Below the pieces are notes generated by a model that was given only the letters and a program-made list of their open reading frames with translations, did not search any database and was not told the DNA's origin. This document shows, one piece after another, positions 13,790 through 64,000 of a stretch of DNA of 64,000 bases (position 1 is the first letter of the stretch; each line of letters begins with the position of its first letter). Made by a program: the position numbers and the translations under genes. Source of the stretch: Neovahlkampfia damariscottae. Taxonomy: Eukaryota; Heterolobosea; Selenaionea; Neovahlkampfiida; Neovahlkampfiidae. The DNA is taken from NCBI GenBank assembly GCA_016618085.1, contig JABLTG010000006.1, positions 204,078 through 268,077 on the forward strand. Direction: 5' to 3'.

Positions 13790-14713
13790 TTATTCTTCTT
13801 TAAAGTAATTATATATTTTTTCTGAAATAGATTTTCCCAATTTCTTTTTTTCTTCATTAATCCTATTTTGACCTATTGGATAAATAACTTCAATATTTGT
13901 CAATAAACTTAATTTTTCTTTTTCAGTTTTATTTGAAAAATAATATTCATCCGTTAGTGATTTAAAAGTTGGATATTTATTGACAATTGCATTTACTTTA
14001 ATTTCAGGAATACCCAATTGTAATAATCCATTCTTAAAAGTCTCAGATGGATCTTTTGATGAATCTGTTTTTGTTGTTTGAAAGTCTAATATTGTCATTT
14101 TCTTTTCATTTGTGAATAAATTTAAAACAAAAGTGTTTAAAAAGTCAGATGTTTCTTCTGAATTTTGTGTTTCTCTTGTGTTTATATCTAAGTTAATTTG
14201 TAGTTCTGTTATAACTTGTAGGGTTTTTTTAGGTGCAAAATTAGGTCTGTATGTTTTATCTTCACGACATTTTTTACTTAATTCTGTGAGAACTTTACAA
14301 TATTGCATGTTAAAAGACTCCAAAATTAAAAAAAAATCAATTTTTGAAATTTCTTCATTTTGAGTATTCTCATTGATATATTTGACAAGTTGATGTTTTA
14401 TCGATGTAAAATAAGCTACCATTGTTGAATTTTCTTTAACAAATTTTTCCGATGAAGGTTGAATATAAATCACTTTTGTAAGGAAATTATTATTCATTTT
14501 AAATAATATTGTGTTGGGTATTGGATTATTTTGTTCTATTATATTACATTTCTGAGAAAAATTTGTTTTTAAATTTTCAAGAATTTCTTCTCTTTCTACT
14601 TTTCGTTTCACCTTCTTTCTGTAAATATTTTGATCAAAGTAGATTTCAAGAGAATCATTTTTTGTTCGTTTATTTTGTGAATTTTCATCCAAAGTTTCTT
14701 TTCTTTTACTCAT
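13790..14713 (-). CDS. EME1/MMS4-like endonuclease partner subunit
   Basis: An intronless ORF of 307 residues. The C-terminal 75 residues match the helix-hairpin-helix region of EME1 ('LLQLGIPEIKVNAIVNKYPT' region, then 'ISEKIYNYFKEE'). The centre looks like a diverged ERCC4 nuclease fold with no catalytic G-D-x(n)-ERK-x3-D visible, as expected for the non-catalytic partner. EME1 pairs with MUS81 to cut branched DNA and Holliday-junction intermediates in the nucleus. It is shorter than yeast or human EME1 (over 550 residues), lacking most of the disordered N-terminus. The N-terminus holds Lys/Arg clusters that could be a nuclear signal. Confidence 0.65.
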   Translation of the reverse strand: MSKRKETLDENSQNKRTKNDSLEIYFDQNIYRKKVKRKVEREEILENLKTNFSQKCNIIEQNNPIPNTILFKMNNNFLTKVIYIQPSSEKFVKENSTMVAYFTSIKHQLVKYINENTQNEEISKIDFFLILESFNMQYCKVLTELSKKCREDKTYRPNFAPKKTLQVITELQINLDINTRETQNSEETSDFLNTFVLNLFTNEKKMTILDFQTTKTDSSKDPSETFKNGLLQLGIPEIKVNAIVNKYPTFKSLTDEYYFSNKTEKEKLSLLTNIEVIYPIGQNRINEEKKKLGKSISEKIYNYFKEE

Positions 14714-14802
14714 TCTAATTTTTTGTTTTCGGTTATTTTAACCAACGAAATCAAGTCAATTTCTATTGGACCACGTTTTAATTCAAACAATCAAAACAAA
14801 AG

Positions 14803-15064
14803 ATGGTTTGAAAGAGTTTGGTTTTAATTTTTTTAGACAAAAAGTGCAAGACTTGCAAAAATTAAAAGTGATGAATGGCAAAAAAAAGGAAAATTGTCAA
14901 AAGAAGAAAAAGAAGAAAAAAAAAATAAAGATGATGCTCCAGCTGTCTCACCGTTCATTTTAGGAATGTTTTTATTTGTTGTAGTTGGTTCAGTTATTTT
15001 TCAAATCTTCCAAAATGCACGTAATGCAGCTACATATGGTGTAGGTGCTCAATACGAAGGTTAA
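14803..15064 (+). CDS. RAMP4/SERP1 stress-associated ER protein
   Basis: A tiny two-exon gene. Exon 1 is only the ATG (14803-14805), the intron is 14806-14836, and exon 2 runs to 15064, giving 76 residues. The N-terminal half is Lys/Glu-rich and cytosolic; the C-terminal half has one membrane segment 'FILGMFLFVVVGSVIFQIFQ', the hallmark of RAMP4. RAMP4 sits at the Sec61 translocon and supports membrane protein glycosylation under stress. The C-terminus extends a few residues past the usual end ('YGVGAQYEG'). A single-codon first exon is unusual and would be missed by most gene finders. Confidence 0.88.
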
Positions 15065-15318
15065 GGATTTGTAATTTCAAAAAAAAAAAAAAAAAAAACA
15101 ATAAAATTTTTCCAATCTCCCATTCTTTTATTTTTGACTATTTTATTCTTTTCTCACTCTGGAGTATATTACTCATTTCAAAATAATTAGAAGCCTGACA
15201 TTTCATATTTTCAACTTAGTTTGAAGGAAGTGCTCCTCAATTGTTCTCTTTTGTATTCATTGGAGAACAAGAAGATGAAAACAACAAAAAGCAGCATGAG
15301 AAAATTATGTAAAGAAGT

Positions 15319-15963
15319 TTATTTTTTTTCTGATTTTTTAGCCAATTTAGCAGCTTCTTCAGCTTCTTGGATAACTTTTTTAGCTTTTCTATCCATTCTT
15401 GCTTCGTATTTTTGTTTTAATAATTTTTGTTTTTCTTTCTTTGCTGCAAGTTGTTCTTTGAGTTTTTTTTCTCTTAATTTTTCCGCGTGGAGTTTGAAAA
15501 CTTGTTCCATAAGATTTTTTTTAGCTTTGAAACCATTACCCTTAACTTTAAGGTATAATCTATGATATAAATGTTTATCAATTTTTCCAGAGTTTCTGTA
15601 TTTTTTTAAGACTCTTCTAAGAATTCTAATTCTTTTCATCCATTGAATTTTTGTTGGATTTCTAGCTTCAGATGTACCTCTTCTTTTTCCGATACCATTA
15701 TGTCTACCTTTTGCTCTAGCTTCTTTCATTTTTCTCCATCTATAACGTGAACGAATAACAATTGGTTTTCTGATGATAGCACCATCTTTGATGAGTTTTC
15801 TGATGTTAGCTCCTAAAAAATAATTTGTTTAACAAAAAAGTTCAAATTTACTTGAGTTAGCCATTCCTAATTCAGAAAGTTCATTTGGATCCATCCATAC
15901 GCGTTTTTTACCACATTTAAGGATATCAGCTGCTAATCTCTTTTGTGTACGAAGAGTAACCAT
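15319..15963 (-). CDS. RPL19: 60S ribosomal protein eL19
   Basis: Two exons, intron 15813-15851 (39 nt), giving 201 residues, close to the usual 190-200. It starts '[20 protein letters not shown]' and continues '[13 protein letters not shown]', '[10 protein letters not shown]', '[11 protein letters not shown]' and '[16 protein letters not shown]', all typical of eL19. The C-terminal third is a long Lys/Glu-rich helix, also typical. It is a structural component of the large ribosomal subunit. An ATTGGTC sequence on the plus strand (16027-16033) lies 64 bp upstream. Confidence 0.97.
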
Positions 15964-16249: not shown

Positions 16250-18189
16250 ATGTCTTTGACAGGTTTATTTGTTGGTGATAACCAACTTCTGAAAACTGGT
16301 TTGATACAATACCTTACAACTGGAGAGTACAACACAAAAGCAAAAGTAAATTATGCAAAACCATATGAATTAGAAATTAAAGAAATTACCTTTAACTTTA
16401 TTGATGCAGACCGTAAATTTTTTTTAAAATTAACAAATTTCAGCATCCATTGAACCATCCACTTTATTTTCTTCTTCTTCACTTGAATACATAGATGTTG
16501 TTTTTTTGACTATTGAATCAGAAAAAGATTTAGAAAAAGTTGAAAAAGAGTGGATAGAAGAAATAAAAAACAAAAGAAAACCTCTTTATATTCTATTTCA
16601 AACAGATGATCTCTTGGGTCAAAATTTAATCAACTTCGACTCTTTACAAAACTATGAATTATATTTTGGTTATTTTCTTTTTTTGAAAGAAAAACCAACT
16701 TTTTTTGATGAACTTTTACAACAATTATGTGAAATATTTTTCATTCAACCATTGAATACCATTTATGATTTCAAAACGAAAGTAAGAAAAGAAAAAGAAA
16801 TTCTCATTTTTTTTAGGAATTGACAAAAGAGGCTGTTCTAGCATTGGATAGAATATTTTGGTATTTAGATGAAGACCATGATGGTATTTTAAATAAAAAA
16901 GAAGTAAAACAACTTTCACACGTTCAAATTGGTGTAAACTCAAATGAATTTCTTGAGTTACAAAAAAATTTTATTCAAGAACGTGAATATGAAAAAGTAT
17001 GGAAACTCTTAAAAGCTTTTCATTATGATATTGAATTGAATTTAGATTTCACAGAATTAACGTAAAAAAAAAACAAATTTTTTAACACTCAATTAGAGAA
17101 CCATTTGTTGAACATTCAATCGATAAAATAGTGAATATGAGTCCAAAATTTTTAGAAAAATTAAAAAAGATATTTCATTATTTTGATTATGATAAAGATA
17201 ATTGTTTAAATGATAACGAACTTCAATTTGTTTTTAAAATAATAAATTATAATCCATTTGAAGATGAAGATTTGATTTTAGAGAAAAATGAAGGAAAATT
17301 AACATTAAAAGGCTGGATTTCACTTTGGCAGTAAAAAAAATTTATTTCACAATTTTTTAACACAAATTTCACACAGTTTTATTTTATATCGAAATTTTGA
17401 ACAATTTTTGAATTCATTATGTTATTTAGGTTTAAGTGATGATTTAGAGTCATTTTTAGATTTTAAAAAAAAAGGAGAAGTTTCTGATATTATTCAATGT
17501 TTTGTTTTTGGTGCAATTAAAGTTGGAAAAACAAGTTTTATTTCAAGAGGTTCTTCTTCAAATAAACCAACAAAAAAACAAACATCTTCAATATTTAAAA
17601 TTAAAAATCAACATTTAATTTTAACTGAATTTCCAGATTCAAAAGCAATGAGTATTATAAATTCAAATGAATTATCAAAATGTCATGTTATTTGTTTACT
17701 CTATGATGGATCAGATAAATATAGTTTTTCATATTTGACAGATATTCAAGTTGCTATATTTAAATCCAATTCAAATATTCCATGTGTTTATTTTGAAACA
17801 AAAGCGGATTTAGAACAAGTTGAACAAGTAAGTAAATTTCATTTTTTTTCAACTTTTTAAAAGAATCATGAAGTTACACCTTCTGAATTTTGTCTTCATT
17901 TATCATTGACAGCACCTATTTCTTGTTCATGTTTGAAAGAACCAGAAGCTTTAACTCCAATTTTTGAACAAATTTCATACATTGCTTCAGATCCGTATAT
18001 TTTTTTAAATTTTTTAAATTTTTAAGGGAAATTGCAATACCTCGTTATAAAGATGATGTAGTTGATAAAAAGTCAACAAAAATTTCACCAAAAACAATAA
18101 TTAAAAGAACAATTACAATTTTAAGTGTTGTTGGTATTGTTTCTTCAATTTTTTGGTTTTATGTAAAGAGAGATAAAAAAGAGGAATAA
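16250..18189 (+). CDS. Mitochondrial Rho GTPase (Miro)
   Basis: About 573 residues in seven exons. Order: GTPase 1 (about 1-150), EF-hand 1 ('DEDHDGILNKKE'), EF-hand 2 ('DYDKDNCLNDNE'), GTPase 2 with an intact P-loop ('FGAIKVGKTSFI'), and a C-terminal tail anchor ('ITILSVVGIVSSIFWFYV') followed by 'KRDKKEE'. This order is unique to Miro, which sits in the outer mitochondrial membrane and controls mitochondrial transport and ER contacts. GTPase 1 looks degenerate: its P-loop reads 'GDNQLLKT' and no NKxD is seen ('FQTDD' stands at that place). In GTPase 2 the NKxD position reads 'ETKAD'. It follows ATTGGTC (16216-16222). Confidence 0.92.
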
Positions 18190-18307
18190 AGAAATTTCAT
18201 TTTTTCATCAATATGTGTCATAAATAAAAAAAATGTTTTGAAAAGTGATTGTATTGGACAATTTCTTCATATCCAATCAAAGTCCATTAAAAAAAAGTGA
18301 ACAAACA

Positions 18308-18559
18308 ATGAGCAGTGGACCTACAATCAAAGAAAATTTTGATAACAGAGAATACATTGAAAAAGTATCACAAAATATTCTTCGAATTACAGAGTTTTTA
18401 AATAAATTTGAATTTGTAACAAGAACTAAATTAAACGACTTAAATCAAAAATTATCTGTAATTGAAAGAAAAATGGAATATATTGAAGCAGCTGTTGATT
18501 CTGTTGAATTAGCACAAAAACAACAAAATAATTCATCCATTGAACAAATTGAAGAATAA
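18308..18559 (+). CDS. BRK1: BRK1/HSPC300, WAVE/SCAR complex subunit
   Basis: A small intronless gene of 83 residues. The core 'NREYIEKVSQNILRITEFL' and 'RTKLNDLNQKLSVIERKMEY' matches BRICK1 closely, with the regular heptads of its single long helix. BRK1 is the smallest subunit of the five-member WAVE regulatory complex that links Rac to Arp2/3 actin assembly. The normal length is about 75 residues. Its presence supports a cell that crawls with actin-rich protrusions. The start ATG at 18308 is preceded by ATTGGAC at 18254-18260. Confidence 0.9.
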   Translation: MSSGPTIKENFDNREYIEKVSQNILRITEFLNKFEFVTRTKLNDLNQKLSVIERKMEYIEAAVDSVELAQKQQNNSSIEQIEE

Positions 18560-18753
18560 AAAATTATTTATAAAACAAAAATAAAAATTCATTCAAAAAA
18601 TAAAGAATATTAAAAAAATCATTTTCGGAGATTTAAATTCCCAAATATTAAAAAGTGTCCAAAAAAAGTTCTTGAAATGCTCTTATTGGCAAACTGTACT
18701 CCATTCCTATTGGCTTATTTTACAAACGTCTCGACTAAAAGAATCAAAGAGTT

Positions 18754-19967
18754 ATGAGTTGTCTTAAAGGTAATGATCCAGAAAAAGCTAAAAACGATGC
18801 TCTAAACAATAATTTAAAGAAACAAAAAAATAATATGGACACTTCTGTCAAAGTGCTTCTCTTAGGTTTTTTTTTTTTTTTTTTTAAAACAAACTTTTTT
18901 AAAGGAGCTGGAGAATCTGGAAAATCAACTTTCTTCAAACAAATGAAAATTATCTATGTTAATGGTTATACTCAAGATGAATTACTCGCTATTCGTGAAA
19001 CTGTTAGAGAAAACATTATGAAATCTATGAAGTCACTTTTGTCAGCAGCAAACCAAAGAGGTTTTAAATTAAAACCTGAAAACGAAGAAGCAGCTGAAGT
19101 TATTTCAGAATTTCAACTTGATGAAAATATTGACAAAAAATACACTGTAAAAACTGGTAAATGTGTGGCAGAACTTTGGAATGATCCAGCTATTCAAAAA
19201 GTTTATGAATATAGATCAGAATTTCAGTTATTCGATTCTGCAGTTTAGTAACAAACTCTTTGAAAAAAATTAACATTATTTTAGTTTCTTTTCTGAAATT
19301 GAAAGAATTTCAGATTTTTCATATTCACCTACAATACCAGATCTTATTCGTTGTCGTACAAAAACAACAGGTATTGTTGGAATTGAATTTGAAATTGATA
19401 AAGTTCATTATAAACTTTCAGATGTAGGTGGTCAAAGATCAGAAAGAAAAAAATGGATTCATTGTTTTGATGATGTTAACGCAATTCTATTTGTTGTTGC
19501 TCTTAGTGAATATGATTTAAAATGTTACGAAGATGGAACAACTCCAAGGTAAAAAAAAAACTAAAAATAGACCTTAACAAAATTTAATAGGATGGATGAA
19601 TCACTTGGATTATTTGAAGAAATTTGTAACAATAAGCATTTCACTGACACTCCTATCATCCTTTTCTTCAACAAAGATGATTTATTCAGAGATAAAATTG
19701 AAAAAACAGATTTAAGTGTTTGGGATCCAGGTTTGTTTTTTTTTTTATATTTAAATAAATCATCTATACATAGATTATACTGGTGGAAATGATTACGACA
19801 AAGCTATTAAACATATTAGAGAAAAATTTTTGGGTGTAAATCCAATGTCTGATAGAACTATTGAAGTTTTTGTTTGTACATCCACTGAAACATCTGTTGT
19901 CAAACAAGTATTTGAACAAATTAAAGGAGCTATTCTTCAATTACGTGATTCAAAAAAGAAAAAATAA
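18754..19967 (+). CDS. Heterotrimeric G protein alpha subunit
   Basis: About 350 residues in five exons. All nucleotide-binding motifs are present: P-loop '[11 protein letters not shown]', switch I 'RCRTKTTGI' with the catalytic Arg, switch II '[16 protein letters not shown]' with the catalytic Gln, 'LFFNKDD' for guanine binding, and a slightly altered last motif 'VCTSTET' (usually TCAT). The all-helical insert lies between P-loop and switch I. The N-terminus is 'MSCLKGN': there is no Gly at position 2 for myristoylation, and Cys3 could be palmitoylated. It would transmit signals from 7TM receptors at the plasma membrane. The first intron is T-rich (18 T in a row). Confidence 0.95.
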
Positions 19968-19985
19968 ATTTATAATTTTTTATTG

Positions 19986-20792
19986 TTAACAGAAACATGT
20001 ATTTTCATCTTTTATTTCATTTTGATTTACTAATTTTATTCTTTTATCAATCATTGTTGATTGTGTATTTTCATTTTCTTTTATTAATTTTTTACAAATA
20101 AAAAGGAATAATTCATCAACTCCTTTGTTTTCTTTTGAAGATGTTTCAAAATAAATTGAGTTCATTGAATTTACAAATTGTTTCATTATTTCATTTTTTT
20201 TTGAAAGCATTTCTTTTGTCAATAAATCACTCTTAGTTCCTGTGAAAATGAAGACTTTTGTTTTTAACTTTTTTTTTTTTTTTTTTTACTTGTATCCTCA
20301 GGAACATTCTTTATTAGTTCTTGTCTCCAATATTTTGAATATTTTATCAATTCTAATTCATCACTTTCCATTAAATCCTAAAGATAAAAATTTAGTTTTA
20401 TTTGTTTTAGAACAATTGAAATAACAGCAATAACAGTTCCACGATAATACATAGGGCCCTATAATATAAATATATTTTAAAATGAAGTACCATTGTTCTG
20501 AACCTCTCTTGTCCAGCTGTATCCCAACAATTAAGTTTTACTGTCCACTCTGGAAATTTCCTGTAAAATAATGTTAGAGTAAATATTTGAATACATTGTC
20601 TTGGTTGTGAATGTTGCTCCTATTGTTGTTGATGAATCCATTATAAACTTATTTTCACAAAATCTTACAAGTAAACATGTTTTTCCGACACCTAGAAGAA
20701 TTAAATAGATTTTTAATACCAGCATTTCCAATAATTACAACTTTTGCTTCGATGATTTTATTCTTCTGGTCAATTTTCAAATGTCGTTCCAT
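19986..20792 (-). CDS. Rab-like small GTPase
   Basis: About 201 residues in six exons from ATG 20792 ('MERHLKIDQKNKI'). Motifs: P-loop 'GNAGVGKTCLL', switch I 'TTIGATF', switch II 'WDTAGQERFRTM', guanine motif 'GTKSD' (NKxD with N replaced by T), then 'FETSSKENKGV'. The C-terminus is 'TCFC', a double-Cys geranylgeranylation signal typical of Rabs. It resembles the Rab5/21/22 group in 'TIGATF' and should act in vesicle traffic, probably endocytic. The catalytic Gln is kept. Introns include a 3' one with a long T run on the plus strand (20272-20287). Confidence 0.87.
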
Positions 20793-55745: not shown

Positions 55746-56927
55746 TTATTCAACTAAATCATTATTTCCAAAACTTCTTGTTTTCACAGGATCATCCCAT
55801 GGACATTGAATTTGTAATTCATCAGGTTGATCATAATCTTTATCAGGAACATATTTTGCATTATTTTTATCTCTAAAATATCTTAACCAAAATGCACGAT
55901 CAAAACTTTTTAAAAGTGCAGCATCACTTTTTCTTGAAACAAAAAAATCAGGAAAGTCCTCAAGAATCTCATTGACAAATTGATCAAGTTCTCTATGTGA
56001 ACTAAATGTTTTTTTTTTCTCTTTAAAACTACATTTTTCTCTAATATCATCTGGGATGTCATATTCAATATTACATTCTCCTTTTGTTCTTAATTTCTTA
56101 ACAAATTCACCAAGTTGACCTTTAAATTTTATATGTGGATCAATATCAAGTGCAAGTAATAAATCATCAACAAATACTTGACAATTATTTTTACTTTTAT
56201 CATATGAATGATTGACATTCCACCTTGCAACAACTTCTGATAATTTCTCAATTACTTTATCAGAATCTACAATTTCTAAATGTGAATCAATATCAAGAGC
56301 TACAATTGCAGCTTGAGAAAAACATTTCTTTGGAATACATAATTCTCGATTTGTCCATTCTAAATACCATGGACCAATTGAAAGTGCTGAATGGAACATT
56401 CCACACTTTGGTCCAATATTTAATGTACTCGCAACAGGTGATAATAATTTTCTTATTGTCCTTTCTTTTTCATTTTTTGCAATTTCTGTAATGACCAATT
56501 TAATTTTTAATTTTTCATTGGTTTTCATTAAAATTTCTTCATCTTCTTTTGAATAGATTTCATCTTCTTCTATCTGTTGACCTTCTGAAATTGAGTTCAA
56601 AACTTCACTTTCAACACCTGAAACTAAATAATTTTGTTTTTCTTTTTGTTTTGGAATAGTTTGAAAATATTCAAGCGCATTTTTGAAATTTTTGTTCAAA
56701 TAAGCTTCTTGTATTCCTTCAGGTGTAGATAAATTTTTTGAAAAATCAACCAAAGTTTTTTCAGGAACTTCACTGCCTGTAGCATTTTGTATTTTTTTTT
56801 GAACCAAATTCATTTTTTCAGAGATGTCCAATTCTGACAGACGTTTCTTGTCTTCCATTATTTTTTTCTTTTCATTTTTTGAAGGATCTGATAATTCAGT
56901 TTTTGATTTTTTTTTTCCTAAAACCAT
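55746..56927 (-). CDS. Permuted NlpC/P60 (LRAT/PPPDE-like) family protein, copy C
   Basis: An intronless 393-residue member, starting 'MVLGKKKSKTELSD'. It has the N-terminal helical module ('AYLNKNFKNALEYFQTIPKQ'), a conserved beta block 'KLKIKLVITEIAKNEKERT', the His motif 'GMFHSALSIGPWYLEW', the Cys motif 'KNNCQVFVDDLLLALDIDPH', and the end motif 'ALLKSFDRAFWLRYFRD'. It is the best template for the family here. It lies tail-to-tail with the SDR gene, with stops 7 bp apart. It is most similar to the neighbouring truncated copy D, showing a local duplication. Confidence 0.72.
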   Translation of the reverse strand: MVLGKKKSKTELSDPSKNEKKKIMEDKKRLSELDISEKMNLVQKKIQNATGSEVPEKTLVDFSKNLSTPEGIQEAYLNKNFKNALEYFQTIPKQKEKQNYLVSGVESEVLNSISEGQQIEEDEIYSKEDEEILMKTNEKLKIKLVITEIAKNEKERTIRKLLSPVASTLNIGPKCGMFHSALSIGPWYLEWTNRELCIPKKCFSQAAIVALDIDSHLEIVDSDKVIEKLSEVVARWNVNHSYDKSKNNCQVFVDDLLLALDIDPHIKFKGQLGEFVKKLRTKGECNIEYDIPDDIREKCSFKEKKKTFSSHRELDQFVNEILEDFPDFFVSRKSDAALLKSFDRAFWLRYFRDKNNAKYVPDKDYDQPDELQIQCPWDDPVKTRSFGNNDLVE

Positions 56928-56987
56928 TCAAAAATGAGGTGAATCCAACTTGAGGAAAAATGTGCAATTTTATTGGATGATAAATAT

Positions 56988-58018
56988 TTAAATTAATTTG
57001 TTGTTTCCAAAACTCTTTGTTGTAACAAGGTCATCCCATGGACACCCTAATATCATCAATTCACTTTTCTTTTCATCTTGTATTTTAAAAGCACTGAAAT
57101 CTTCATTATTCTTGTCTCTGTAACGTCTCAACCAAAAAGCACGATCAAAAGATTTCAAAAGTGAAGCATCTCCTTTTTTTGACACAAAAAAATCAGGTAC
57201 TCTTTCTAAAATTGTTAACACAAAATTATCCAATTGTTTATGAGTTGTAAATTGAATTTTCTCTTCTTTAAAGCCACATAATTCTCTAATATCAGTTGGT
57301 ATCTTATATTCCATTTCACCTTCACCTTTTGTTCTGAGATTTTCTACATATTGACCTAATTGTCCTTTATATTTCAAATGAGGGTCGATATCAAGTGCAA
57401 GTAATAAATCATCAACAAATACTTGACAATTATTTTTACTTTTGTCATATGAATGCATTACATTCCATCTTGCAATAACTTCAGATATTTTATTAATAAT
57501 GGTGTCAGTATCAAATAATTCCAAATTACTTTCCAAATCAAGAGCTACAATCGCAGCATGTGAATAACATTTCTTTGGAATACATAATTCTCGATTTGTC
57601 CATTCTAAATACCATGGACCAATTGAAAGTGCTGAATGAAACATTCCTGAAATTGTTAAACATTGATAATTTTACCACATTTTGGGCCAACATTAAATGT
57701 ACTCATAACAGGTGATACTAGCTTTCTTAATGTCTTTTCCTTATTATTTTTCGCTATTTCTGTAATGACTAACTTAATTTTTAATTTTTCGTTTGTTTTC
57801 ATCAAAAATTCTTCATCTTCTTTATCATATTTGAAATCTTCATCTTCTTCAACTTCTTGTGAATTCACTATTGATCCTCCAACTGTTGACATCATTCTTT
57901 TAATATTTTGTTTTGGTATTTGTTGGAAGTACTCCAAAGCGTTTTTGAAGTTTTTGTTTAAATAAGCATTTTTAACTCCTTCAGGAGTAGCTAATCTTTT
58001 ACTAAAATCCTTTAACGA
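56988..58018 (-). pseudogene. Permuted NlpC/P60 family, copy D, 5'-truncated
   Basis: Clearly a duplicate of copy C: it keeps the region from 'KDFSKRLATPEGVKNAYLNK' on, the His motif 'GMFHSALSIGPWYLEW' (rebuilt across a 30-nt intron near 57645-57674), the Cys motif 'KNNCQVFVDDLL' and the end motif 'LLKSFDRAFWLRRYRD'. The first roughly 55 residues of the family are missing. Upstream at 58019 the sequence switches to an AT-only repeat (58021-58070) in which the frame has no ATG before a stop. I therefore call it 5'-truncated. The body is still open, so it may be young or have a new start not visible here. Confidence 0.65.
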
Positions 58019-58465: not shown

Positions 58466-58936
58466 TGCTTTCAATACTTTACTTCTGTGTTGTTTGTATT
58501 GGTTTTTCATCACAATTCAATCAAACTTTGATCACAAAAATTTCAGGCGATAATAATATTACAAGCTTTTGGTGATGCACTTGGAGCTCCAAACGAAATT
58601 TACAATTTCAAAAATTATTCTTCACCTAAAAATCAGAAGTGTACTTTGAGAAATGTCTCCAATTTTTATAACAATACAATGTATCCAAACACATGGTTCA
58701 TATGGCCACCACCTTCAAAAATTAAAAATTACTTTGGAGTGTTCACTGATGACACTTCTCAAAGACTTGCAAATTTTTATTTATTTTTATCAAGCTATAA
58801 TAATAGCGCTTTAAATTTTGATGAATATGATTACATAATTTGGAAGAAAAAAATTGCAAATGATTTATTAGTAGTAGAGGCGAAAGGTCCAACTGGGAAT
58901 TTAACTTTTTTTAATTTTCACCCCCCAAGGAAGTAA
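58466..58936 (+). pseudogene. ADP-ribosylglycohydrolase-like fragment
   Basis: A plus-strand piece that begins with a possible short first exon (ATG 58466) and continues after an acceptor near 58545. It shows the two N-terminal hallmarks of the ADP-ribosylglycohydrolase family: 'FGDALGAPNE' (G-D-x-x-G-x-P-x-E) and 'FGVFTDDTSQRLA' (T-D-D-T, the first metal-binding site). The frame ends at 58934-58936 after some 130 residues, whereas the family needs about 300 with a second metal motif. What follows (C6 and C7 runs) is unlike coding sequence. I judge it 3'-truncated by a rearrangement. It removes ADP-ribose in intact relatives. Confidence 0.55.
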
Positions 58937-59636
58937 AAAAAGACCATTTTCGCGGATTTTTTATTTTTTTCGACCAAATCCCCCCCAACACCCAGAGCCA
59001 TTTTCTTGCCAGCTCACGCCTCAACTCGGCATTTTTTTGTCATTTGAAAATTTTAGTTACCTTCTTACTTTTTGTTAGCCATAATTTATTTCTTGGTTGC
59101 CCTCTTTTATTGGTTTATGATATTTGGCGTTTGGTTGATTCAATTTTATGATGATGATATTTTGGAACTTTAGATCAATAATTTCAAGATTTTGGCAGAT
59201 GGATTGAAGAAAAGAAAATTCTTTTAACAAAAAAAGAAACATTGAAACAATCCTGTGAAAAGAAAATCATTTATTATTTAAGTGGATGATATCTTTATGG
59301 ATTTTACAAGTTTCATTGATGCTAATCATTGAGTCACCATACAAAGCACGAATTCGACGCATTTCTCTTCAATAACCTACAAACAAGTTTTTTATATGAT
59401 TTTTGAAAATATGGAATATAATTTAACATATTCAGGTTGTCCGATGGTTTCATTTAGAGATGATTATTTAAACATAACAGGAGTATTTAAATATCATACA
59501 ATACCGATTGATAAAATGGTGGAAATTTGTAAATTTGAAAGTCCATTAGAAAATTATGAAAAAACATTAATTTTAATTATATAGATTTATAAATTGGGTT
59601 TAAGGAATAAATTATATTATAGTATTATATAATATA
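58937..59636. other. Rearranged stretch with exon-like scraps left of the element
   Basis: 700 bp. It opens with unusual C-runs and a G/C-richer patch (58920-59035). Plus-strand frames at about 59090-59172 (hydrophobic, 'WFMIFGVWLIQFYDDD'), about 59190-59290 ('DFGRWIEEKKILL') and 59396-59584 ('SGCPMVSFRDDYLNITGVF') look like exons of an unidentified host gene, but I cannot join them. The last 30 bases before 59637 are almost only A and T and may be the promoter of the next ORF. Confidence 0.4.
59607..59636 (+). promoter_or_regulatory. AT-only putative promoter of the polymerase ORF
   Basis: The bases directly before ATG 59637 include ATTATATAATATAAT. The minus-strand ORF at the window's right end also has ATAATATAAT just before its ATG. 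The shared decamer suggests a common element-specific promoter, unlike the ATTGGTC of host genes. Confidence 0.4.
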
Positions 59637-62600
59637 ATGGAAACTCAAAAATTAAACAAAAGAAAAATTAAAGATTTAGCAAATGAATCATTAAACAACA
59701 TTATTCACTTCAAAAAGAAGAAGGATGGACAACGTTATTATTATTACAATGATAATAAAGAACAAAAAATATTTATCACAAAAGAAGACAGAAAAAGAAT
59801 TTCACAAGAAAAGAAAAAAATTAGATCTGAAAATTTAACAAAAAGAGAAAAAAAATTGCCAGAAGATTATTTAAACAAGAAGGTAATTATTGCAAGACAA
59901 GGAAATGAATATTTTTATTGGTATCCTAGTCCAGTATTTAACAGAACAAATATCACCAAAGAAAAAGTTGATGAAATTAAAAAAAAAGCAAAAGAATTGA
60001 AACAAGAAAATAAAGAACAATCAGAACAAAAATATACAATTCATTACACTATTTGGAAGGAAAAAATTATAAAGAATGAGGAAGGTGAAAAAATAAAAAG
60101 TGAATTTACAAATAAAGATAACCCACCTAAAATTTACCCATCTAGAAGTGGGACAGTAGTTGTTCAAACAAATGCTGATTTCATTAAATTTTTAGAAAAT
60201 TACCCAAATTATTATGAACATGATTACAAGCATAAAAATAATAAACTCATACAATATGATGAATTATTTAATGACCATTTATATATTCCTATTATTGCAG
60301 ATGAACAAGACCGTGACCAAATAGACAAAAATAAAGGAGATGTTATTGTTTCACTTGAAAAATTAATTGACCCTTTTGCTACTGATGATAATGGTAATGG
60401 TGAACTTACAGCTTTTAAAATGAATCTTTATTATGGTAATTTCATTACATTTGATGATATCAGAAGAGGAACACATAAGAAAATGAATATTATGAAGACT
60501 AAATTACATGCTGAAACTTGTAACACAATCAATAATAAAGCAATTAATTACAAAGGGAAAACATTAAAGAAAATTATTGATACAAATCAATTGAATGATG
60601 AACACAAACAAAACGCGTGTGTCTATACTGCTTTAATCAAAATGTATCATAATACCATAAAAATAAATCAAAAAAGAATGTCTTACAATAATTTATATCA
60701 ATTCTTTCACGATAAGAAGTATATTGAAAACGCAGATTTAGGTTTATCAATTGAACAATTAAAAAGGTTCTTTGAAACATTTAATTTACATTGCACATTA
60801 TTAGATGGACAAAATAAAATATTTTACAAATATGTTGCTAAAAATGTTAAACACATTGAAAATAAGCATTTTAAAGCAATTATTACAAATAATCACATTT
60901 ATCCATTTACAAATAGATTAAATGCATTTAATTCAAAGGAGGAAGAAGAAATTAAAACTTGTGAATATTATAATGTAAAACCAAAGAAAGATAAAAATGA
61001 ATTGTTCATTTATGATAAAGAAGAGTTATTGAATTTAGAATTTATTGATGATAGAATCACAATTTATTATGGTGGAAATTTAACTGAAGTATTAATTTGG
61101 TTGAAATATACTTTAAAATATCACCCACAAATTAGATATTCCAAATCATTAACTAATATTTTATTGAAAATAAATAATACCATTGTCAATTTAACAAATC
61201 ACGATATTACATTTAATGAAGATGAAACAGAAATTAGATGTAAAGATGAAAAAGTAAAAACCGATTATATGAAATTGTATAAAAAATATGATAATGAATT
61301 TATGAATGGATTATTACGTAAAGACTATTTATCAACTTATTCTGATTCATTACAACATAATTTATTTAATTTTCCAATTTCTTGTGCTGTTGGTAATTTA
61401 AAATGTAATATTCCAAAAGAACAGTTCGCAATTGATTTTACAAAAGCTTATTCTTCAATCTTATATGAAAGTAAATTTATCCCAGTTGCTACATCTTTTA
61501 ATGAATTTGAAAAATATAATGGAGAAGCTATTTTACCATCAAATTTATATATGATTAAATTAGAATCTTCACCAGAAAATAAATTATTATCTGATACAAC
61601 AAGATTAATTTATGGTGTTAATTTATTATTGATTAAAAAATATCAAAAAGTTAAAATTATGACCGTTTGTAAGTTAAATAAAGTTCAAAATAATGATATT
61701 TTACCTTCAATTATGGATAAAATAAAAGATAGTGGTTTAAAAGTTGATGATTGGAAATTCATTTTAAATAAAGGTATTGGATTAACTGGAAAAAGATATT
61801 CACAAGGAAGTCAAAGCGGATTATATGATACAGAAAAAGAAGCAAATATGTATTTGAAACGTAATAATCCACATTTTCCAAAACACGTAAGAGATACAGA
61901 ATTATGGTATATTGAACATAAAGGAGAAAGGAAACAATTAAAAAATGGTCTTTATTTAATTCAAGCATTAATTTATGATACAATGAGAACAAAATTATTT
62001 TTAATGTATAAAGAATTAAGAGAACAAAGTATTGATGTTGTATCAGTAAAAACTGATTGTATTTATACAGATAAAAAACCGGACACTTTAAGATTATCAT
62101 TTAGAACTGGCAATAAATGGGGGGAAATAAAACCAGTTCAACAAGAATATTTTAAAGGTTCAACTTTTTTAACAATGTATAAATACACTAAAGATTGCTG
62201 TGATACTTGTTTAAGAAAATGTGAAAATTTTAATGTTGAAAAAATTAAATCAAAAATCTTCAGACCACCAACAATAAACAAAATTGAATTAAAAAATGAA
62301 TTTGATAATACAGAATTTAGTAAAGCAATTGATAGAACCATTGTAAGAGCTGACCTTCCAGGTGCTGGTAAAACGACCAATATTATTAAATATTATCAAT
62401 CCATAAACAAAAGAATTTTAGTTGCTTGTCTAACAAATGTTTTAGCATTAGATATTAAAAATAAATTCAAAAAAGTTGAAGCGATTACATTTTGTAAATT
62501 AGCCGGTATTATTGTAGGAGATGATAAAAAAGTGAGGTCATTTGATTTAACAGATTTTGATGTCATTCTGATTGATGAAATTTATAATTTGACAACAAGT

Positions 62601-63644
62601 GATTTATGGGATTTGAAAAATATTATGGAATCAAATGAAGATAAAATATTTATTGCAACTGGGGATAATTTACAAAATAGTCCGATTGAGAATTTCATTA
62701 ATGATGAAACTATTTACAACAAAATTATTGAGAATATGTTTTATAATCATTTACAATTACATAGAAGTAGAAGAATTAAAGATGAGAAACAAGAAGAAAC
62801 ATTAAAAAAATTAAAGAAATACATTTTTGATAATTTCAATAATGTTTCACGTCAAGAACTCATTAATACACTTCATACACAATTTGGAATTAAAATAAAT
62901 GGAGAAAAAAATAACAGAACAGATATGAATATTACTTATTTTAATTCAACAGCGATAAAAATATGTCAAGGAGTATTAAATAAATTAAAATATAAAAAGG
63001 TTCAATGTAAAATTTTTAACTGGTGCAAAGATATCAAATGTTTCGTAAAACAAAGATTTAGAACTAAAGATAATTTATTTCACAACAATTATGTTTATAA
63101 TATTGTGGAATTAAATAAAGAAACTGCAACATTACAAGATATTTTAACCAAAGAAAAATATATTATTTCAATTCAACGTTTAGATAGTTGTTTTCGTCCT
63201 TATTTTGCTCATACAAGTCATTCAGTGCAGGGAGTCACCACTGATAAAAAGATTAATATTTTTGATATTGAAAGTGATTTTGTTGATGATAGGTGGGCTT
63301 GGACCGCTCTCACAAGATGCACCAACTTAAATAATTTAAATTTAGTTGTTTCAAATACGAGTGTAAAATTGGATTATGATTTTGAAAGAATGATAAGTAA
63401 TTACAAATCTCAAGACATGAAAGCGAAAAGAAATATTACAAATAAATTTATTACAAAAAACGATATTATGGAAATGCACAAAAAACAAAAGGGTAAATGT
63501 ATTATTTGTAAAGAACAATTAAATTTATCACCAATTGAAGGAGACGGAAAAAATATTTCAGTAGATAGATTAGAGAACTCTTTAAGTCATTTAAAATCAA
63601 ATTGTCAATTAACATGTATTCATTGTAATGTAAGCAAAAAATAA
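59637..63644 (+). CDS. Family B DNA polymerase - SF1 helicase - HNH nuclease fusion
   Basis: An intronless 1335-residue ORF. N-terminus (1-300) is Lys/Tyr-rich, with two related units ('RYYYYNDNKEQKIFITKEDR', 'EYFYWYPSPVFNRTNITKEK'). At about 320-430 a block with 'NACVYTALIKMY' and 'NNHIYPFT' is like that before PolB cores of Polinton-like and plasmid polymerases. Polymerase motifs: A 'FAIDFTKAYSSILY' (Asp near 600), B-like 'LNKGIGLTGKRY', C 'VSVKTDCIYTD' (near 807). Helicase: Walker A 'LPGAGKTTN' (near 910), Walker B 'VILIDEIYNL', 'FIATGDNLQNSP', 'HTSHSVQGVT', 'WAWTALTRC'. HNH end: 'CIICKEQ', 'ISVDRLENSLSH', 'CIHCNVSKK'. It should copy its own DNA. No proofreading exonuclease motif is evident. 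It lacks introns, unlike many host genes here. Confidence 0.87.
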   Translation: METQKLNKRKIKDLANESLNNIIHFKKKKDGQRYYYYNDNKEQKIFITKEDRKRISQEKKKIRSENLTKREKKLPEDYLNKKVIIARQGNEYFYWYPSPVFNRTNITKEKVDEIKKKAKELKQENKEQSEQKYTIHYTIWKEKIIKNEEGEKIKSEFTNKDNPPKIYPSRSGTVVVQTNADFIKFLENYPNYYEHDYKHKNNKLIQYDELFNDHLYIPIIADEQDRDQIDKNKGDVIVSLEKLIDPFATDDNGNGELTAFKMNLYYGNFITFDDIRRGTHKKMNIMKTKLHAETCNTINNKAINYKGKTLKKIIDTNQLNDEHKQNACVYTALIKMYHNTIKINQKRMSYNNLYQFFHDKKYIENADLGLSIEQLKRFFETFNLHCTLLDGQNKIFYKYVAKNVKHIENKHFKAIITNNHIYPFTNRLNAFNSKEEEEIKTCEYYNVKPKKDKNELFIYDKEELLNLEFIDDRITIYYGGNLTEVLIWLKYTLKYHPQIRYSKSLTNILLKINNTIVNLTNHDITFNEDETEIRCKDEKVKTDYMKLYKKYDNEFMNGLLRKDYLSTYSDSLQHNLFNFPISCAVGNLKCNIPKEQFAIDFTKAYSSILYESKFIPVATSFNEFEKYNGEAILPSNLYMIKLESSPENKLLSDTTRLIYGVNLLLIKKYQKVKIMTVCKLNKVQNNDILPSIMDKIKDSGLKVDDWKFILNKGIGLTGKRYSQGSQSGLYDTEKEANMYLKRNNPHFPKHVRDTELWYIEHKGERKQLKNGLYLIQALIYDTMRTKLFLMYKELREQSIDVVSVKTDCIYTDKKPDTLRLSFRTGNKWGEIKPVQQEYFKGSTFLTMYKYTKDCCDTCLRKCENFNVEKIKSKIFRPPTINKIELKNEFDNTEFSKAIDRTIVRADLPGAGKTTNIIKYYQSINKRILVACLTNVLALDIKNKFKKVEAITFCKLAGIIVGDDKKVRSFDLTDFDVILIDEIYNLTTSDLWDLKNIMESNEDKIFIATGDNLQNSPIENFINDETIYNKIIENMFYNHLQLHRSRRIKDEKQEETLKKLKKYIFDNFNNVSRQELINTLHTQFGIKINGEKNNRTDMNITYFNSTAIKICQGVLNKLKYKKVQCKIFNWCKDIKCFVKQRFRTKDNLFHNNYVYNIVELNKETATLQDILTKEKYIISIQRLDSCFRPYFAHTSHSVQGVTTDKKINIFDIESDFVDDRWAWTALTRCTNLNNLNLVVSNTSVKLDYDFERMISNYKSQDMKAKRNITNKFITKNDIMEMHKKQKGKCIICKEQLNLSPIEGDGKNISVDRLENSLSHLKSNCQLTCIHCNVSKK

Positions 63645-63646
63645 AT

Positions 63647-63751
63647 TCGTAGTTTTTGTTATCCATAAAAATTGGTTGATAGATTCTATATAAACAAATC
63701 AGATTATGTAGAAACAAATGACCATAAATTTATGAATAACAAAAACTACGA
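63647..63751. terminator. Inverted repeat (23-bp arms) between convergent ORFs
   Basis: Arm 63647-63669 pairs with 63729-63751 at 22 of 23 positions; the loop is 59 bases. It starts 3 bases after the polymerase stop and ends 11 bases before the stop of the minus-strand zinc-finger ORF. The place suggests a bidirectional transcript-end signal, as known for mimivirus hairpins. Confidence 0.7.
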
Positions 63752-63761
63752 GTCAAAAATT

Positions 63762-63983
63762 TTAAATTTCACCATGAATAAGAGAATTTTTTTTATGTCT
63801 TTTTGAATTGCAGTGCCTTTGAAATTTGTATTTTCTCACATCCATATTACAAAATTCACATCTTTTTGTTTCATATAATTTTTTTTTTATTTCTTCTTTA
63901 TTTTCTTCATAATAATTCTTAAAATAATCCTTGTAATGCTGTTCTCTTTCGAATTCTGTTTTAAAATTATATTTTTTAGGCAT
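63762..63983 (-). CDS. Small C2H2 zinc-finger protein of the virus-like element
   Basis: An intronless ORF of 73 residues, starting 'MPKKYNFKTEFEREQHYK'. The first half is a Tyr/Glu/Lys-rich helix ('DYFKNYYEENKEEIKKKL'). The second half is one zinc finger, 'CEFCNMDVRKYKFQRHCNS' with a final His in 'KRH' (C-x2-C-x11-H-x5-H spacing). Short proteins with this mix of a YY-ENK-type helix and a single C2H2 finger are common in giant viruses and polinton-like viruses. It converges on the polymerase ORF. The ATG is preceded by ATAATATAAT. It may bind the element's DNA. Confidence 0.65.
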   Translation of the reverse strand: MPKKYNFKTEFEREQHYKDYFKNYYEENKEEIKKKLYETKRCEFCNMDVRKYKFQRHCNSKRHKKNSLIHGEI

Positions 63984-64000
63984 TTTTGTAATTATATTAT

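Follow-up and report, generated by a model that had tools for sequence, protein, structure and literature searches.

What kind of element closes a contig of Neovahlkampfia damariscottae with a single open reading frame (ORF) of 1335 codons that appears to join polymerase, helicase and nuclease sequences in one chain? The window, meaning the whole 64,000-nucleotide stretch of DNA analyzed here, corresponds to C274:204078-268077 (contig JABLTG010000006.1) of a genome searched as 20.4 Mb in 307 contigs, and its right edge, base 268077, is the final base of C274. An earlier sequence-only reading had seen there a virus-like, self-replicating element at 59637..64000, and had expected that capsid and integrase genes might lie beyond the right edge. 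The frame it described, 59637-63644 on the plus strand, is open throughout, and its product is called the replicase here. The element itself starts at 58870, to the left of the interval first proposed, and very probably the contig end holds the left-hand portion of a Polinton-like virus of the Tlr1 type, integrated in a eukaryotic chromosome and reduced by a large internal deletion.

The virus-like character of the element, and its Polinton-like kinship, are borne out by sister copies elsewhere in the genome that link the replicase to integrase, ATPase and capsid-candidate genes and to terminal repeats. A replicase search (35 of 85 candidates scored, matches merged by hand into loci) gave at least 41 matches representing at least 27 loci on 24 contigs, and because the gene recurs at 27 loci the ORF is not a chance open frame. 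Genome-wide matches to the neighboring genes, counted as pieces and not as loci, number 42 for the rve integrase, 37 for the A32-type ATPase, 34 for the capsid candidate and 19 for a DUF5901 minor-capsid candidate. The ATPase matches Pfam Pox_A32 (E 9e-15), and the minor-capsid candidate matches DUF5901 (9e-10), whose role we take to be that of a minor capsid protein. Replicase, major capsid protein (MCP) candidate, minor capsid protein (mCP) candidate and ATPase stand together at C280 and C47, and at C280 the integrase accompanies them. The order in C280 is terminal repeat (3836), ATPase (6294), MCP candidate (6984), mCP candidate (8234), integrase (16712), replicase (18484) and terminal repeat (25375), and in C47 it is terminal repeat (15571), replicase (17930-20489), mCP candidate (24213), MCP candidate (24965), ATPase (26212) and terminal repeat (28906). 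The C7 integrase matches Pfam rve above the cut-off (E 4.5e-8), and near the C7 replicase it is accompanied by a GIY-YIG gene and by a protein whose zinc-finger match is below cut-off. Among ten proteins scanned, P0021, a relative 52% identical to the capsid candidate, matches Capsid_N just above the cut-off (2e-5), and P0018 falls below it. Proteins of about 400 amino acids, alike and fiber-like by eye, sit beside element genes at C274:91738-92952 (L028 238-1452) and C280:8986-10170.

The element termini, with (AGT)2 starts, point the same way. The terminal repeat, which begins AGTAGTAG and in the window copy runs from 58870, is present in at least 40 copies (40 of 68 candidates scored), and facing pairs spaced 0.9-21.5 kb apart occur in C29, C47, C258, C280 and C268, those of C29 being 125 bp long and 100% identical. 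Flanks were read at four of these pairs (C29, C47, C258 and C280), and two of the four show perfect 6-bp target duplications, TTGATA in C29 and TGGACG in C47; at C258 five of six bases are duplicated. Vertebrate Mavericks are described with (AGT)2 ends and 6-bp duplications (PMC8097293), and rve integrases as typically leaving 6-bp target duplications (PMC12220804). Could these genes instead be a fragment of an integrated giant virus (nucleocytoplasmic large DNA virus, NCLDV)? Pox_A32 and Capsid_N are, by name, also NCLDV families, but the spacing of the facing repeats, the (AGT)2 ends, the 6-bp duplications and the rve integrase leave this origin with almost no probability, the search for linked NCLDV core genes having been confined to the genes named here. 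Three further observations concern the repeats: C258:33904-34763 (L032) is a 0.86-kb mini-element in which two facing repeats surround an integrase fragment; the left terminal repeat of C47 has a ubiquitin-family gene (C47:15207-15419, minus strand) about 150 bases away on its outer side; and at C268:23690-32076 two repeats face each other about 8.4 kb apart, with none of the listed replicase, integrase, ATPase or capsid matches falling between them.

The replicase is assigned to its family most directly by the helicase. Residues 907-1061 match Pfam Viral_helicase1 (E 6e-7), AAA_30 (3e-6) and AAA_19 (8e-6), all above the curated cut-offs, and a profile of 14 relatives matched Pif1/RecD-type SF1 structures in PDB (8bns, E 2e-21), whereas the single replicase protein searched against PDB gave no match; the SF1 helicase first recognized by its motifs is thereby confirmed. 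The HNH/endonuclease VII-like end is also upheld, residues 1175-1335 matching PHROG endonuclease VII (E 3e-7), although a Pfam scan found no HNH match in the window replicase and Endonuclease_7 in only one of the 14 relatives (E 0.036). An HNH-like tail is present in nine of 11 aligned outside relatives (P0001-P0009, not P0010 or P0013); D1310 is changed in four of them, to N in P0002, P0004 and P0006 and to K in P0007, where R1311 and H1318 are missing as well. Within the genome, 18 of the 27 listed loci reach the tail, as judged by query ends, and the other nine matches stop before residue 1280; in the C167 replicase the last stretch is altered. Because it is reached at 18 of 27 loci and is present in nine of 11 outside relatives, the tail seems to have belonged to the enzyme for a long time and not to be a passing homing insertion, and it may cut DNA during replication, recombination or homing. 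Near the 3' end of the C167 replicase there is also a free-standing 108-amino acid ORF (C167:19024-19350, minus strand) that is endonuclease VII-like by eye. Upstream of the helicase, the predicted polymerase and OTU assignments are based on motifs: PolB motifs A (D600), B (K707, N711, G715) and C (T806, D807) are invariant in all 12 aligned rows, as are Cys328 and His420, which stand where related proteins have their vOTU protease. Motif C reads K-T-D807, the first Asp of the usual DTD being replaced in every row, and the roughly 180 residues between His420 and D600 probably leave no room for both an exonuclease and the beginning of the palm.

Several results weigh against the identification of this locus as a Polinton-like virus with a polymerase-helicase replicase. 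The polymerase part alone was recognized by none of the database searches, a profile search to E 10 included; hhalign comparison of the palm with the phi29 and PRD1 polymerases gave no support, and comparison with three DNA_pol_B_2 proteins of the same genome gave only weak scores (E 0.07-0.21). The OTU region had no family match in Pfam, and none in a profile search even at E 10. Nor did the capsid candidate itself match a capsid family in Pfam, and the rve matches of the C78 (1e-7) and C280 (2e-7) integrases are just below cut-off. C280 has an integrase frame interrupted by an in-frame TGA, a partial inverted second copy beside it and flanks with no matching target duplication. Finally, the assembly does not contain the right terminus of this element, and only the left terminal repeat is present. 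On the other side, nine of 11 checked positions are identical in register between the palm and the DNA_pol_B_2 proteins, in an alignment that covers motifs A, B and C, and we take this as backing for a palm, not as proof of one. The PolB motifs A and C of the sequence-only reading are confirmed and are conserved, with the reservation that motif C departs from the usual form and that the palm alone finds no database match.

The DNA_pol_B_2 proteins used in this comparison come from nine Pfam matches in the genome, eight of them above cut-off, in a scan whose E. coli control protein matched below cut-off. They include a second, helicase-free replicase type (L037-L040), found at C227:5215-6996 (593 amino acids), C268:169-2001 (610 amino acids), C199:5472-5900 and C188:8801-9229, with motif C reading N-T-D in C227 and with interrupted frames in C199 and C188. 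C199 (15.4 kb) also carries minor-capsid, capsid and ATPase pieces at 13954-15409, and the presence of capsid genes beside a helicase-free replicase suggests exchange of replication modules.

Might the window copy be a product of assembly, either pieces of different elements joined at a contig end in a repeat or a contaminant contig? The contig does end inside a repeat, the window's deletion junction is unique, and close copies are able to confuse an assembler. Yet the contig carries a further copy, complete with integrase and replicase matches, at C274:93874-98112, target duplications flank the elements of C29 and C47, a ubiquitin-family gene neighbors the C47 repeat at a distance of about 150 bp, and three other loci are shortened on the same side with other junctions, so that we regard an artefact as quite improbable. 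The sequence-only reading had named a misjoined contaminant as what would overturn it: a contaminant accounts neither for the 27 loci nor for the target duplications flanking two sister copies nor for the second copy on the contig, and what is left of that objection is a misjoin at 59368-59371 alone. On the outer side of the element, the window has duplicated host-like genes at 55746-57937 (minus strand), one of 393 amino acids and a second copy split into two frames; their DNA is 73-83% identical, and they have no firm family match in Pfam.

What the window copy has lost is seen by comparison with C280. The DNA at 58870-59371 is 94% identical to C280:3835-4332 over 504 columns, and the roughly 13.9 kb of C280 that is then absent holds the ATPase, capsid-candidate, minor-capsid-candidate and integrase genes. 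Those integrase and capsid genes stand 5' of the C280 replicase, in the part that is deleted from the window copy, so that the expectation of finding them past the right edge, where the contig in any case ends, is not supported. The junction also truncates a small gene that precedes the replicase, whose intact counterparts encode 105 amino acids in C280 and 104 in C11. Up to the contig end the window copy gave no match for the integrase, capsid, minor-capsid or ATPase genes, so it would be movable only with help from fuller copies. It looks defective and not self-sufficient, contrary to the self-replicating element first envisaged.

Other copies are shortened as well: the distance from the terminal repeat to the 5' end of the replicase is 0.77 kb in the window, 0.9 kb in C29, 1.1 kb in C167 and 1.8 kb in C11, and the last three are shortened on the same side as the window with other junctions. 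This raises the alternative of a capsid-less replicon or selfish satellite, in which short, repeat-bounded elements retain the replicase and depend on full elements for their movement. Transpovirons are about 7 kb long and have terminal repeats. They carry Tlr1-like helicases, as described in part of PMC11071308, and C29 resembles them in being 7.15 kb long with identical terminal repeats, besides having a perfect target duplication and no integrase, ATPase, minor-capsid or capsid match listed on its contig. The replicase frame is moreover open in the window and, except for its altered last stretch, in C167. Unlike transpovirons, which are plasmid-like molecules of mimivirids, the short forms here lie in eukaryotic contigs with ubiquitin genes and look like private deletions. 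Searches of the genome with junction-spanning DNA found that of the window at the window locus only (all four matches listed) and that of C29 at C29 only (40 of 60 candidates scored). A query from C167, whose junction lies further to the right, matched mainly terminal repeats. Because the window and C29 junctions each occur at a single locus, the shortenings look like separate deletions, and because the window junction is unique there is no sign of a short form moving by itself. The window junction also cuts a neighboring gene, in C29 the replicase is broken up into two frames, of 173 and 1150 amino acids, and C11 retains only residues 1-348. A capsid-less satellite is accordingly an improbable description of these loci, and separate decay of a full Polinton-like virus is preferred.

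An open frame in a decayed copy could also mean that the host has domesticated the replicase gene, since the frame comes from a lineage under purifying selection. Pairwise dN/dS (the ratio of nonsynonymous to synonymous substitution rates) took in eight of the 27 loci and was 0.134 for window-C280, 0.261 for window-C167 and 0.192 for C280-C167, with dS of 0.21-0.29. By this codon comparison the values show purifying selection on the replicase in the lineage and say nothing about activity of the window copy. The mobile lineage may, however, have been under this selection prior to insertion, the replicase follows a terminal repeat in the company of another element gene, and close copies are broken; domestication is highly improbable. 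In a tree of 19 proteins the eight genome copies used form one group (99/99) with P0001 adjacent, and P0003 is a long branch whose placement is unsure. The nearest replicase relative outside this genome is 33% identical, the best among 8000 candidates scored, and scans of IMG/VR with the replicase, the replicase alignment, P0010 and the capsid alignment confirmed no relative.

How does this protein compare with known replicases? Passages of PMC11071308, a preprint, describe Tlr1-like helicases as pPolB-S1H fusions with palm and vOTU domains and, in different Polinton-like viruses, a C-terminal GIY-YIG or HNH domain. Because such fusions with a C-terminal HNH are on record there, the single chain pointed out by the sequence-only reading has to be counted as a known architecture, to which this sequence group and its genome appear to add a new member. 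The window protein resembles these helicases in its N-terminal region, the Cys and His at the vOTU place, palm motifs without the full DTD, the SF1 helicase and the C-terminal nuclease; it differs from Tlr1, which has GIY-YIG (PMC11071308), in its HNH tail, and from the other Tlr1-like helicases in forming its own sequence group. Compared by description, the Tlr1 element of Tetrahymena likewise unites an SF1 helicase gene with an RVE integrase, a packaging ATPase and both capsid proteins common to Polintons, in a different host (PMC4642659, in part). With Polintons/Mavericks (PMC8097293, in part) the family shares the rve integrase, the (AGT)2 ends, the 6-bp target duplications and the ATPase and capsid genes, but the replicase here is a helicase fusion and seems to have too little room for an exonuclease. 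Fusions of other kinds include C-terminal GIY-YIG and N-terminal HNH in cryptophyte Polinton-like viruses (PMC12220804, in part). OmPLV of Oxyrrhis marina also has many endogenous copies and one helicase-polymerase chain, but in the passages of PMC12721341 that describe it the domain order is opposite, with the helicase N-terminal, and OmPLV carries a full exonuclease and a tyrosine recombinase and lacks target duplications.

Features of the window copy. Positions are those of the window.
Feature	Position	Strand	Basis or remark
Predicted target duplication TTTATT	58864-58869		adjoins left terminal repeat
Left terminal inverted repeat	58870..59150	+	begins 5'-AGTAGTAGAGG; facing repeats in C29, C47, C280, C258
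Inner left arm	59151..59371	+	alignment to C280
Deletion junction	59368..59371	.	C280:4332 jumps to C280:18215
Small-gene remnant, 62 codons	59396..59584	+	5' end cut by junction; precedes replicase
Replicase ORF, 1335 amino acids	59637..63644	+	N-terminal region, OTU-like region, predicted PolB palm, SF1 helicase, HNH
Predicted vOTU-like protease region	60489..60956	+	residues ~285-440; position and invariant Cys328, His420
Predicted PolB palm region	61074..62246	+	residues ~480-870; D600, K707/N711/G715, KTD807; weak profile support
SF1 (Pif1/RecD-like) helicase	62349..63356	+	residues ~905-1240
C-terminal HNH/endonuclease VII-like domain	63396..63641	+	C1291, D1310, R1311, H1318, N1322, C1327, C1330
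Palindrome, 105 bases	63647..63751	.	between convergent replicase and small ORF
Small ORF, 73 amino acids	63762..63983	-	zinc-finger-like pattern by eye; conserved in element family

The small ORF beside the replicase had been taken for a C2H2 protein. Its gene is conserved near seven other copies, with tblastn identities in the fetched stretches of 81% (C167), 78% (C29), 69% (C280) and 62% (C79) and weaker ones of 45% (C270), 40% (C7) and 37% (C78); the CxxC-H-H pattern was seen by eye, and Pfam detects no zinc finger in the 73 residues. A plus-strand zinc-finger gene follows the replicase in C280 and C29, that of C280 matching Pfam zf-C2H2_jaz (1e-7), and in the window a second gap of about 450 bases has removed this gene and kept the minus-strand small ORF. 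The palindrome between replicase and small ORF folds far better than shuffled sequences (z-score -11.6), and its core recurs in nine of 40 fetched loci. Palindromes of about 110 bases form a family between element genes, with members at C280:11446-11924, 17942-18051 and 22957, at C29:2150-2259 and 7269, and in the window at 63647-63751. They are perhaps transcript 3' end signals between converging genes, but a C280 copy that also sits between divergent genes runs counter to a simple 3' end role.

How would an intact relative replicate? Models published for the Tlr1-like helicase family, as given in part of PMC11071308, invoke protein priming, release of the primer by the OTU-like domain and copying by the palm. 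For the family described here we infer a similar course, in which the N-terminal part of the replicase would serve as protein primer for replication starting at the terminal repeats, the OTU-like domain would release this primer portion, and the palm would copy the DNA while the fused SF1 helicase displaced the other strand, the helicase role being our own addition. The HNH domain may then cut branched or homologous target DNA, the retroviral-type integrase would insert the linear DNA and so make the 6-bp duplications, and the capsid protein and the A32-type ATPase would package element DNA. Because primer, polymerase, helicase and nuclease would share one template-bound chain, the replicase could act mainly in cis, and a single-chain replicase of this kind might let derivatives with terminal repeat and replicase persist as recurrent satellites of the full virus, while the related capsid genes that share contig C199 with the helicase-free replicase would reflect an exchange of replication modules; we hold this extension to be unlikely. 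The locus adds to a eukaryotic genome a many-copy family of the Tlr1 type that has exact ends and in which integrase, capsid-candidate and replicase genes are linked.

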